Part shown: positions 19,967 through 58,040 of the stretch, in pieces
Position numbering within the stretch: the stretch's first letter is position 1
How the letters are laid out: the number at the start of each line of letters is the position of its first letter
Origin: Natribacillus halophilus
GTDB lineage: Bacteria; Bacillota; Bacilli; Bacillales; Marinococcaceae
Length of the DNA stretch: 64,000 nucleotides
Assembly (NCBI RefSeq): GCF_900100185.1
Contig: NZ_FNEN01000004.1
Coordinates: forward strand, 124,001-188,000
Direction: 5' to 3'
The notes under the pieces: model-generated
What the model was told of the DNA's origin: nothing
The model's database searches: none
The model's input: the letters and a program-made list of their open reading frames with translations, nothing else
Translations under genes and position numbers: made by a program

Positions 19967-20612
19967 AAAAACGGCAATCGCCAGCGAGTTATTAACGATA
20001 GGCGCTGTGTCTCTGCAACCGAACGACCCGTTCACTTGGTCCTCGGGACTGAAAGCGCCCATCTATTGTGATAACCGCTTAACGTTATCATCCCCCTCTT
20101 TCCGTACAAAATTGGCCGAAGCTTTTACTAGCAAAATTCTTCGTCGCTTCCCGGAAACAGAAGTAGTCGCGGGCACGGCAACCGCAGGTATACCGCACGC
20201 AGCACTGGTGGCTGACCGCTTGGAGTTGCCGATGGTGTACGTACGCGGTAAGGCAAAAGGACATGGGAAACAGAATCTCATCGAAGGCGACGTTCGTGGT
20301 GGGCAAAAAGTCGTCGTGATTGAAGACTTGGTATCTACCGGCAACAGCGCCATCGAAGCGACCAAAGCCCTTGAAGCGGCCGGCGCCGACGTTTTAGGCA
20401 TCGTCGCGATTTTCTCCTACGGACTTGTGATCGGTGGACGCAATCTTGCTGAGGCGAATGTGCACCTGGAAACACTTACGGATTTCGATGCCCTCATTAC
20501 GGCGTCCATTCATAACGGCGTGATCGCCGAAGAGGACCTGGAAGGGATCCGGACCTGGCAGCAGGACCCGGAAGCGTGGGGTAGCCGTAAATTTGGCGAA
20601 GTGCCAGAATAA
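19959..20612 (+). CDS. pyrE: Orotate phosphoribosyltransferase
   Basis: Couples orotate to PRPP. The 217-residue product has the orotate/PRPP site residues (FTWSSGLKAPIYCDNR), the PRPP motif VVVIEDLVSTGNSAIEA and VAGTATAGIPHAALVAD. The ATG at 19959 lies inside the end of pyrF. The last codons (GAAGTGCCAGAATAA) form the first unit of a 21-bp direct-repeat array that continues past the stop. It is the last gene of the pyr operon. Confidence 0.96.
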
Positions 20613-20695
20613 GAGTGAAAAGCGCCAGAATACGAAAGAAAAGCGCCAGAATATGTCCAAAAAGCGCCAGAATATCACGGCAAAGTGCCAGATTA
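20599..20695 (+). repeat. 21-bp tandem repeat, five units, starting in the pyrE 3' end
   Basis: A conserved 13-mer AAGYGCCAGAATA recurs at 20599, 20620, 20641, 20662 and 20683, an exact 21-base period, with eight less conserved bases between copies. The first unit contains the pyrE stop codon; the fifth copy is slightly degenerate (GATTA). It fills most of the gap between pyrE and the convergent coiled-coil gene. No strong terminator hairpin with a T-run was seen here apart from a CGCCTG/CAGGCG stem at 20702-20727. Confidence 0.95.
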
Positions 20696-20743
20696 TCTTC
20701 TCGCCTGTCCCTCATAGATGGCAGGCGAAAGCTTAGCTGGCTT

Positions 20744-21091
20744 TTATTTTATTTGATTCTTCATCACTTCCGAGATCGTGTGCAATGCCTCGGATGTCTT
20801 ACGGTGGGTTTCTTCGATCTTCGATAGACGTACGCTCGTATCGATCTGGGTGGATTCGAGGTTCCCGATGCGACGGGTGTGTTCCTTTTGGTTCATCTCT
20901 ATGTTTTCCATCCGCTGATCCATGCTATCAAACCGCTGATCGATCTGCTCGAACCGTTCATCGATCTGCTCAAACCGTTGATCAATCTGCTCGAATCGTT
21001 CATCAATCTTACTAAACTGCTCTAACATCAGTTTTCTGGTATCGGTCATTAATTGAAAGAGCTGCTTAAAATCATGATCGTTCGTCGCCAT
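20744..21091 (-). CDS. Small coiled-coil protein of unknown function
   Basis: A 115-residue, highly charged protein without a membrane segment or signal peptide. Residues about 25-65 consist of heptad repeats (RFEQIDQ, RFEQIDE, RFEQIDQ, RFDSMDQ), and the remainder continues as predicted coiled coil (RRIGNLESTQID). The repeats are also visible in DNA as a 21-base period. AAAGGTGGTGAG precedes the ATG, supporting real translation. The function is not recognised; such proteins may be oligomerisation or scaffold proteins. It is convergent with the pyr operon, has no counterpart in the syntenic B. subtilis region, and lies between pyrE and the symporter gene. Confidence 0.7.
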   Translation of the reverse strand: MATNDHDFKQLFQLMTDTRKLMLEQFSKIDERFEQIDQRFEQIDERFEQIDQRFDSMDQRMENIEMNQKEHTRRIGNLESTQIDTSVRLSKIEETHRKTSEALHTISEVMKNQIK

Positions 21092-55097: not shown

Positions 55098-56087
55098 ATG
55101 AACTTTTTCAAGAAACTAAAAGAACGCGTGTCATCACAAACCGATACCGTCACTACGAAATTCAAGGATGGCCTGGAGAAAACGCGCCATTCTTTCGCGG
55201 AGAAGATGAACGAGCTGGCGGCGAGATATCGGACAGTGGATGAAGATTTTTTTGAAGAACTGGAAGAACTGCTCATATCTGCCGATGTCGGGGTCCACAC
55301 CGTCATGGAAGTGACCGAAGAGCTCCGTACGGAAGTGAAACGGCAAAATGTCAAGTCACCCCGGGACGTATTGCCGATCATTAGTGAAAAATTAACCGCC
55401 AAACTCGACTATAGCGGCGAAGATTACACCCTGAATATGAATGACGAAGGCATGACGGTCATTCTGTTTGTCGGAGTCAATGGGGTCGGAAAAACGACGA
55501 CGATCGGCAAGGTCGCCCACCGCTTTAAATCCGAAGGCAAAAACGTCGTCCTGGCGGCAGGAGACACGTTCCGGGCCGGCGCCATTGAACAGCTGGCTGT
55601 CTGGGGCGAAGAGGTTGGCGTGAACGTCATTAAGCAGGAAGCAGGCTCGGATCCCGCGGCCGTCATGTACGATGCCATCCAGTCCGCCCGTTCCAAAAAA
55701 GCCGACGTCCTGCTTTGCGACACGGCCGGACGCTTGCAAAACAAAGTGAACTTGATGAAAGAGCTGGAAAAGGTGAAACGAGTCATCAGTCGCGAAATAC
55801 CGTCGGCCCCCCACGAGGTCCTTCTCGTTCTCGATGCAACGACGGGCCAGAACGCGATGACCCAGGCGAAAACGTTTAAAGAAGCCACAGATGTCTCCGG
55901 CATCGCGCTTGCGAAGCTGGACGGAACAGCGAAAGGGGGCATCGTGCTGGCGATTCGCAATGAACTCGATATTCCGGTGAAATTCGTCGGCCTCGGCGAA
56001 GGGCTTGATGACCTGCAGCCGTTTGATGCCGAACAGTTTACGTATGGGCTGTTCCGGGAACTCGCGGAGGATGACGATCGCGGCTAG
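55098..56087 (+). CDS. ftsY: Signal recognition particle receptor FtsY
   Basis: GTPase that docks SRP-ribosome complexes at the membrane. The 329-residue product has a short basic N-terminal region (MNFFKKLKERVSS), the helical N domain, and the G domain with GVNGVGKTTTIGK (about 126), AAGDTFRAGAIEQL, CDTAGRLQNK (about 208), TKLDG-like AKLDGTAKGG and FVGLGEGLDDL. It lacks a long acidic A domain, as in other Bacilli. A 52-bp repeat array begins one base after its stop. Confidence 0.96.
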   Translation: MNFFKKLKERVSSQTDTVTTKFKDGLEKTRHSFAEKMNELAARYRTVDEDFFEELEELLISADVGVHTVMEVTEELRTEVKRQNVKSPRDVLPIISEKLTAKLDYSGEDYTLNMNDEGMTVILFVGVNGVGKTTTIGKVAHRFKSEGKNVVLAAGDTFRAGAIEQLAVWGEEVGVNVIKQEAGSDPAAVMYDAIQSARSKKADVLLCDTAGRLQNKVNLMKELEKVKRVISREIPSAPHEVLLVLDATTGQNAMTQAKTFKEATDVSGIALAKLDGTAKGGIVLAIRNELDIPVKFVGLGEGLDDLQPFDAEQFTYGLFRELAEDDDRG

Positions 56088-56088
56088 A

Positions 56089-56246
56089 GTTAGGTCATTG
56101 GCGACTTAACGAGTTATAGTGGAGACCGTTAGGTCGTCAACCAAGGCTCATGAAGACCTAACGCGTCAAGACGGAAGCCGTTAGGTCGTCATCCAGGGCA
56201 TATGGCGATCTAACGTGTTATGACGAATGCCATTAGGTCGTCAACG
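56089..56246 (+). repeat. 52-bp tandem repeat array after ftsY, each unit with an inverted repeat
   Basis: Units begin RTTAGGTC at 56089, 56128, 56180 and 56232 (spacings 39, 52, 52; the fourth is partial). Each complete unit also contains the reverse element GACYTAACG or GATCTAACG, then a GnGTyA...CC tail, so each can fold GTTAGGTC against GAYCTAAC. The array fills the gap between the ftsY stop and the ylxM-ffh promoter. No canonical terminator was seen. Confidence 0.92.
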
Positions 56247-56266
56247 TTTCAGCCAAAGATGTGATC

Positions 56267-56292
56267 GGAAACCTTGACATTTCAAGGTTTCC
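56267..56292. promoter_or_regulatory. Perfect 11-bp inverted repeat overlapping the ylxM-ffh -35 box
   Basis: GGAAACCTTGA and TCAAGGTTTCC flank CATT. The left arm and spacer contain the TTGACA -35 hexamer. The arrangement resembles an operator; as RNA it would be a hairpin without a T-run. Confidence 0.75.
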
Positions 56293-56302
56293 CCTGTATC
56301 CT
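56274..56302 (+). promoter_or_regulatory. SigA-type promoter of ylxM-ffh
   Basis: A perfect TTGACA (56274-56279) and TATCCT (56297-56302) are separated by 17 bases and lie 42 bases before the chosen ylxM start. Confidence 0.75.
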
Positions 56303-56343
56303 TGTAAAGGCATTACACTTAACAGATGAACAAGGTGAAGCCA

Positions 56344-56673
56344 TTGCTGGAAAAAACGATGCGAATGAACGCGCTGTTCGATTTTTATCACCCTCTATTA
56401 ACCGAGAAACAGCGCAATTATTTACACCTTTACTACTACGATGATTACTCCCTCGGTGAGATTTCCGAGAACTTTAACGTGAGTCGCCAGGCGGTGTATG
56501 ACAACATCCGGCGCAGTGAACAGGTACTCGAAGAATACGAAGCGAAATTGCGGTTGGACGAGCGTTATCGCCAACGCCAACAGCTCTATCAAAAACTTCG
56601 GGAAGAAGCTGACGCGTCAACATCACCTGCTTTTTTTTCCATCATCGACGCATTGGAACGATCTGAAGAATAG
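56344..56673 (+). CDS. ylxM: YlxM-family SRP-associated helix-turn-helix protein
   Basis: A 109-residue protein of the UPF0122 family, linked to the signal recognition particle pathway and able to influence Ffh in streptococci. It has a sigma-4-like helix-turn-helix: [20 protein letters not shown], then [17 protein letters not shown]. The TTG at 56344 was chosen since AAGGTGA lies upstream and [14 protein letters not shown] aligns with homologues; an ATG at 56326 is possible but has no ribosome-binding site. ffh follows 11 bases after its stop. Confidence 0.9.
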
Positions 56674-56684
56674 GGGGGGACACA

Positions 56685-58040
56685 ATGGCCTTTGAAGGTT
56701 TAGCTGAACGATTGCAGGCGACGATGTCGAAGATTAAAGGCAAGGGGAAGGTCAGTGAAGCGGATGTCAAGGAGATGGCCCGGGAAGTCCGCCTGGCGCT
56801 CCTCGAAGCCGATGTCAATTTCAAAGTCGTCAAGCAATTTGTCAATCGCATCAGGGAGCGGGCCGTCGGGCAAGAGGTGATGAAAAGTTTAACCCCCGGC
56901 CAGCAAGTCATCAAAGTCGTCAATGAAGAATTGACCGACTTGATGGGAAAAGAAGAAAGCAAACTGGCCCAGGCGGACAAAGCCCCAACGGTCGTCATGA
57001 TGGTCGGTCTGCAAGGGTCGGGGAAAACGACGACCGCCGCGAAGCTCGCCAATCACTTACGCAAGGAAAAGAACCGCAATCCCATGCTCGTCGCCGCTGA
57101 CGTCTACCGCCCGGCGGCCATCGACCAGTTGAATACGCTCGGGAAGCAATTGGACATGCCTGTTTTTTCCAAAGGCACAGACGCAAACCCGGTAGATATC
57201 GTCCGGGAAGGCGTCGAGCAGGCCAAAGCGGAAAACCATGATTATGTGCTCCTCGATACGGCCGGGCGTCTGCATGTGGATGAAGCGCTCATGGAAGAGC
57301 TGCAGAAAATGAGCGACGCGGTAGAGCCCCATGAGGTCCTTCTCGTCGTCGACGCCATGACCGGTCAGGATGCGGTCAACGTTGCGGAACAGTTCAACGC
57401 GCAACTCCCCGTCTCCGGCGTCGTCCTTACAAAACTGGACGGAGACACCCGCGGCGGTGCGGCTCTTTCCATTCGCGCGGTCACCGACCAGCCGATCAAG
57501 TTCGCGGGGATGGGCGAGAAAATCGACCAGCTGGAAACGTTTCATCCCGAACGCATGGCCTCGCGTATTCTCGGCATGGGAGACATGCTGTCCCTGATCG
57601 AGAAGGCGCAGACGAACGTGGATGAAGAGCGTGCCAAAGAGCTGGAAAAGAAAATGCGCAATGCCGACCTCACCTTCGATGATTTCCTGGAACAACTGGA
57701 ACAAGTGAAAGGCATGGGGTCGCTCGAAGATTTACTCGGGATGCTCCCGGGTGCCAGCAAAATGAAAGGCCTAAAAAACATGCAAATGGATGAAGGCCAG
57801 ATCGACCGCGTCGAGGCGATCGTCCGCTCGATGACTCGGGCAGAAAAGCAGGATCCCAAGCTGATGAACGCGAGCCGCAAGCGCCGCATCGCCAAAGGAA
57901 GCGGCACATCGGTCCAGGATGTAAACAAATTGCTCAAACAATTCGAGGACATGAAAAAAATGATGAAACAAATGTCTTCCGGCGGCGGCAAAAAGAAAGG
58001 CAAAGGCAAAGGCGGCATGCAAATGCCCTTTATGCGTTGA
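56685..58040 (+). CDS. ffh: Signal recognition particle protein Ffh
   Basis: Binds signal sequences and SRP RNA for co-translational targeting. The 451-residue product has the N domain, the GTPase domain with [15 protein letters not shown] (about 108), [12 protein letters not shown] (about 190) and [13 protein letters not shown], and a methionine-rich M domain ([38 protein letters not shown]). The C-terminal tail [18 protein letters not shown] is typical. GGGGGGA precedes the ATG. It ends near the rpsP promoter. Confidence 0.97.

Follow-up and report, generated by a model that had tools for sequence, protein, structure and literature searches.

Tandem repeats with a unit of constant 52 nt and variable sequence have been described as satellites of Firmicutes, and roughly 30% of the Bacillus species surveyed carry them; their function was left unexplained, with nucleoid proteins or small RNAs suggested (Subirana & Messeguer 2021, PMC8161180). 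According to an excerpt of PMC8625621, B. coagulans transcribes its 52-nt satellites. REP and BIME elements, as a section of PMC3733652 presents them, are likewise intergenic imperfect palindromes found close to gene ends and in the gaps of convergent gene pairs. A portion of PMC6379681 reports that in E. coli BIME-2 elements are cut by gyrase, that the gyrase motif is symmetric with a phased G+C content at a period of 10.75 bp, and that fragments of 35-52 bp are the minimal ones wrapped by the GyrA C-terminal domains. Literature searches on GTTAGGTCGTC gave no match, and several combinations of terms on 52-bp intergenic tandem repeats in Bacillus, or on such repeats with helical turns, came back empty.

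The window analysed here is a stretch of 64,000 nt from Natribacillus halophilus, whose genome is referred to as G000, and it carries a 52-bp array directly after ftsY. A sequence-only reading of this DNA had described four RTTAGGTC starts with spacings of 39, 52 and 52; all four are present, at 56089, 56128, 56180 and 56232, the first of them one base past the ftsY stop codon (TAG, 56085-56087). The reverse GAYCTAACG element that it had assigned to every unit is exact in two of the three places (GACCTAACG and GATCTAACG) and departs from that form in the first, which reads GACTTAACG. Tandem Repeats Finder run on the window reported a repeat at 56126-56245 with a period of 52 and a score of 149. 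The array is better described as three 41-bp imperfect palindromes, separated by 11-bp linkers and with a degenerate half-site in front, and the features of the locus are as follows.

55098..56087, + strand: ftsY (329 aa), upstream neighbour outside the array (open reading frame; named from the sequence-only reading and the sequence)
56089..56098, + strand: leading half-site (GTTAGGTC), degenerate in sequence, its linker shortened (read from the sequence; 3 mismatches to the half-site)
56099..56139, + strand: unit 1, 41-bp imperfect palindrome TGR...YCA made of half B, a 15-nt loop and half A (model match, E 2.6e-8)
56140..56150, + strand: 11-bp linker, containing the closer (small-loop) dyad
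56151..56191, + strand: unit 2, which fits the degenerate unit pattern exactly (model match, E 5.2e-11)
56192..56202, + strand: 11-bp linker
56203..56243, + strand: unit 3 (model match, E 1.2e-8)
56274..56302, + strand: promoter-like site of ylxM (TTGACA, 17, TATCCT; 1 found vs 0.6 expected in shuffles)
56326..56673, + strand: ylxM, downstream neighbour, with ffh next at 56685 (open reading frame; names from the sequence-only reading and the sequence)

The complete degenerate pattern of the 41-bp unit had one match in the window compared with 0/100 in shuffled sequences. Near the ylxM promoter-like site, an 11-bp inverted repeat (GGAAACCTTGA / TCAAGGTTTCC) at 56267-56292 overlaps the -35 element and could serve as an operator or form a hairpin; a similar TTGACA is also present in G003, an array-free relative. 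Elsewhere in the window, 20595-20697 and 20928-21009 hold tandem repeats of 21/42 bp, which are multiples of three and perhaps coding.

The sequence family of the window array, here called f1, is dispersed through the genome. A lack of further copies was among the refuting conditions set by the sequence-only reading, and a genome search found such copies: the exact 12-mer GTTAGGTCGTCA occurs 55 times in the whole of G000 (3.30 Mb, 47 contigs), compared with once for the reversed control. A model of f1 was built from sequence only, using 103 units from G000 and from three genomes of a second carrier genus (g10), which may be Salicibibacter. It matched at least 150 units in G000 and 84, 44, 28 and 15 units in four g10 genomes, with no match in the remaining 24 of the 29 genomes of the bacterial family. 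Carriers are thus 5/29 genomes and 2/12 genera, and this patchy occurrence argues against an essential role. Under stricter filters G000 was the sole match among 299 genomes of the order, a set outside which the g10 genomes possibly lie. The degenerate unit pattern had no match in genome_contigs or viral_contigs; since four g10 genomes do contain the pattern and near records were possibly excluded from both collections, this zero is no evidence of absence.

Conservation within f1 is seen in the two half-sites, B (TGRNGMCCTAAC) and A (GTTAGGTCGYCA), and is much lower in the loops. Across 64 arrays, the half-site spacing was 28 in 210/219 steps from B to A and 24 in 168/173 steps from A to B, while six further steps connected half-sites of the same kind, the intervening one having been missed. 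Arrays started with B and finished with A in 46 cases, were mixed in 18 and never had the reverse arrangement, indicating that the f1 unit is the TGR...YCA palindrome; elsewhere f1 arrays reach up to nine units. The GTTAGGT box, which we take to resemble the R' box of integron attC sites, was considered in that light and set aside, the units being only 11 bp apart.

The 52-bp period is shared by arrays of unrelated sequence. A lag scan of sampled stretches detected 12 arrays in G000 (464 kb scanned) and 15 in G009 (400 kb); G044 and G022, sampled at 20 kb each, had 2 and 1, and ten other genera, covered with 359 kb in total, had none. When lags of 30-80 not divisible by three were scanned (multiples of three were set aside, as coding repeats are expected there), arrays appeared at 52 alone, with 8 per 264 kb of G000 and 8 per 200 kb of G009; the signal at 53 was a shifted 52 array. 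Similarly, 589 kb from three genomes reached via Cytobacillus and Robertmurraya loci contained 9 arrays at lag 52 and none at nine other lags. We group the arrays of G000 and G009 into roughly a dozen sequence families. Imperfect inverted repeats (p <= 0.05) were detected in 18/31 arrays and in 16/23 published consensi, compared with 1/30 random 52-mers. A CA-N11-TG motif at the small loop was also considered as a common element; it occurs in 21/31 arrays against 5.5 expected, but shows no excess in 20 published consensi and is therefore not general.

The neighbourhood of ftsY recurs among the sites of such arrays. Relatives of ftsY were retrieved from genome_contigs, and the best 80 of 468 were 70-92% identical; the 80 ftsY loci of named genomes (again the best of 468) carried four strong lag-52 arrays and one weak one, all directly after ftsY. 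A weaker scan of the same 80 loci gave 0-3 scattered matches each at lags 47, 49, 50, 55 and 56; lag 52 gave 5, and lag 51, a multiple of three, about 20. All four g10 genomes also have a 52-bp array of unrelated sequence directly after ftsY (L056, L057, L058 and L060), and beyond it a NERD-domain gene on the opposite strand.

These properties fit the published 52-nt satellites of Firmicutes, and the array after ftsY is one of that kind. The arrays described here have the period of 51-53 nt given in PMC8161180, are non-coding, contain a short sequence plus its own reverse within the repeat, and occur as several unrelated sequence families per genome (about a dozen in G000 and G009). The published search used a threshold of at least four repeats and the window array has three units, the threshold being a search setting and not a biological definition. 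In the main text of PMC8161180 we noticed no genus of the present bacterial family.

The organization of the units was analyzed through the harmonics of G+C content, where harmonic 5 corresponds to 10.4 bp, or five waves per 52 bp. In 31 arrays the mean share of harmonic 5 was 0.122, compared with 0.055 in 227 control intergenic stretches and 0.038 if shares were uniform. For single arrays, it was the top harmonic in 12/31 and reached p <= 0.05 in 15/31. When each of the 12 families was represented by a single array, and likewise in 16 published consensi from other species, the excess had a p value of 5e-5, which is the floor of the test; retaining mirror symmetry in the null gave 3e-4 per set, again the floor. 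Harmonic 5 was the top harmonic in only 4/12 families and 4/16 published consensi. Shares for the named-locus arrays were 0.129 and 0.109 in Cytobacillus and low (0.046 and 0.025) in Robertmurraya. In the f1 array serving as family representative the wave is absent (harmonic-5 share 0.008), and an alignment of 151 f1 units gives larger shares to harmonics 7 (0.151) and 10 (0.119) than to harmonic 5 (0.100). The window array itself has a weak 10.4-bp wave that is not significant on its own (p 0.12), with the phase as expected.

The phase of the wave is a stronger result than its excess. Where a unit has a clear palindrome, its closer dyad coincides with the G+C maximum in 23/23 arrays, 12/12 published consensi and 2/2 named-locus arrays (37/37), compared with 198/400 random 52-mers having an equal palindrome. 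Without the palindrome filter the rule holds in 27/31 arrays, 14/16 published consensi and 4/4 named-locus arrays. None of the other harmonics from 2 to 10 was consistent throughout both larger sets, harmonics 3 and 9 coming nearest with 10/12 among the published consensi. The rule was first noticed on 23 units that overlap both larger test sets; arrays fetched after it had been noticed agree in 3/3 and 6/6 cases (9/9). The 13 arrays outside the larger sets (4/4, 3/3 and 6/6) represent only two or three sequence families, and we guess that 18 to 20 independent families are covered overall. Wave and phase are established as averages over families, published ones included. The dyad and phase rule is what is new in this analysis, the 52-nt repeats being already known; the dyad with its 10.4-bp phase is not in PMC8161180, and the helical argument may be in print elsewhere.

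Gene context was assessed with a simple gene caller, and the background for g10 was taken from G009 only. Arrays sit between called genes, aside from minor overlaps and a pair of short calls at L213, and 52 is not a multiple of three. The f1 arrays were found between convergent genes in 15/34 gaps of G000 compared with 17/177 in the background (p 6e-6), and in 12/29 gaps of g10 compared with 23/162 (p 1.4e-3). Divergent gaps made up 5/63 of the f1 gaps, and in tandem gaps the array was closer to the upstream stop in 28/31 cases. Relative to the gene, f1 was in the same orientation 16 times and in the opposite one 15 times, showing no strand preference. Arrays of the lag sample (28, three of them f1) were in 20 tandem, 5 convergent and 3 divergent gaps; with 5/28 this sample has no clear convergent enrichment, so the convergent preference is demonstrated for f1 only. 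The context of f1, together with its anatomy and dispersal, is established.

Genes next to f1 arrays are ordinary ones. Twenty neighbouring proteins were searched, with ClpP, HPr, elongation factor P and homocysteine synthase among those identified and no match for two of the 20. NERD-domain (PF08378) genes adjoin arrays at several loci, and the five f1 carriers (G000, G009, G044, G022 and G016) have 8-14 NERD-domain matches per genome compared with 0-9 in the other 24. The correlation is weak, as the non-carriers G013, G011, G020 and G004 have 7-9.

We give about an even chance to the explanation that the 52-nt satellite array after ftsY acts as double-stranded DNA, helix-phased and occupied near gene ends by a protein that bends or wraps it. 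The DNA helix has 10.4 bp per turn, and 52 bp is the shortest length in whole base pairs that contains whole turns (10.4 x 5), so that tandem units keep one face of the helix. Typical units have a dyad and five 10.4-bp G+C waves, and a bending or wrapping protein could bind the phased arrays cooperatively. Located near 3' ends, and for f1 in convergent gaps, the arrays would keep this protein where transcription accumulates positive supercoils. A constant length with free sequence, a common phase and dyad, the strand neutrality of f1 and the location at gene ends all fit a role at the level of DNA, and from them we infer protein binding, the candidate identity of the protein and its part in supercoiling. 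Among the roles that the sequence-only reading had offered, protein-binding sites are the one favoured by the evidence, binding being predicted. Against this explanation, the half-sites of f1 are conserved in sequence, and bendability alone would not require such conservation.

DNA gyrase or a nucleoid protein may be the binding partner. The gyrase motif and the arrays are both symmetric with phased G+C content, but the period given in the portion of PMC6379681 cited above is 10.75 bp, compared with 10.4 bp here as a family average; gyrase is therefore a candidate and not a finding.

The nearest competitor, which we regard as rather unlikely, is that the arrays are neutral or mildly selfish satellites, in which units spread, arrays grow by unequal exchange and the 3' location reflects avoidance of promoters. 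Several observations have this character: loci in common differ in copy number (L040, L258 and L272, for instance, have 5, 18 and 3 half-sites), L052 has a three-unit superperiod, units within one array are alike, and the carrier genera are patchy. Such satellites would not readily account for a spacing that is near-invariant despite divergence of the loops, or for one 10.4-bp phase across unrelated sequences, although an old common origin with slow indels could also give the constant length. Also against neutrality, three loci have f1 arrays at the same gene pairs in the two genera, and a fourth locus has one flank in common.

A role in RNA, with transcribed tandem hairpins that end transcription, shield an mRNA or serve as a small or sponge RNA, is less likely still. 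Both strands of 56085-56300 fold better than shuffled sequences (z -6.8 and -5.9); these scores are not attributable to the array alone, as the stretch includes one extra hairpin, the separate strong inverted repeat at 56267-56292. The frequent imperfect inverted repeats (18/31 arrays and 16/23 published consensi vs 1/30 random 52-mers) and the transcription of the B. coagulans satellites described in the excerpt of PMC8625621 are also in keeping with hairpins in a transcript. However, no consensus RNA structure was predicted on 103 f1 units, the variable outer palindrome pair showed no covariation (n=151: A-T 79, G-T 37, A-C 23, G-C 6, others 6), Rfam had no match in 55900-56500 of the window at E up to 1, and f1 lacks a strand preference (16:15).

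The proposals that the array replaces a recognisable terminator, stops transcription or protects the ftsY mRNA were not borne out. An intrinsic terminator (a G+C-rich stem followed by a T run) was detected neither in 55900-56700 nor, on either strand, in the ftsY-ylxM gap. With a crude terminator detector, ylxM being close to ftsY in 23/29 family genomes including G000, only 2/22 array-free relatives with this arrangement had a terminator-like site. Conventional terminators were about equally frequent at f1-facing gene ends (28/81) and at background ends (82/278). The 28 terminator-like sites at f1-facing ends were before the array in 22 cases, after it in 5 and inside it in 1, a gene end with such sites on both sides of the array being scored as "before". 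Other 52-bp families had a terminator-like site at 7/29 ends (4 before, 1 after and 2 inside the array). In addition, two Cytobacillus arrays lie past what appears by eye to be an intrinsic terminator after ftsY.

Finally, mobilisation of REP-like elements by a RAYT or another IS200/IS605-type transposase is highly improbable and was rejected: the 41-bp imperfect palindromes share with REPs, as described in the section of PMC3733652 cited, an intergenic location close to gene ends and in convergent gaps, but Y1_Tnp is distributed unlike the repeats (2 in G000, one of them a fragment, 1 in G022, and at least 1 in 18/24 non-carriers), no associated RAYT was found, and the neighbouring genes are ordinary. 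The arrays further differ from REP/BIME as that section depicts them in being head-to-tail, with a fixed 52 bp and no RAYT link. REPs have a GTAG or CGTC tag beside the stem and form head-to-head dimers; in f1 a CGTC occurs within half A, and the order is head to tail. G009 has 23 IS200-like Y1_Tnp matches, including fragments, compared with 1-4 in the other four carriers.

Returning to helix-phased DNA held by a bending or wrapping protein, a wider version is possible, though we put it forward tentatively and with some doubt. All Firmicutes 52-nt satellites may share one sequence-independent design, with the dyad on a G+C maximum and five waves, that would dock one DNA-wrapping protein, possibly gyrase, and take up positive supercoils where transcription units end; address and phase would persist while the sequence turns over. 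The shared helical phase and dyad make the function of these satellites cheaply testable and, if the explanation is true, 52-nt satellites would provide a handle on supercoiling and nucleoid organization.
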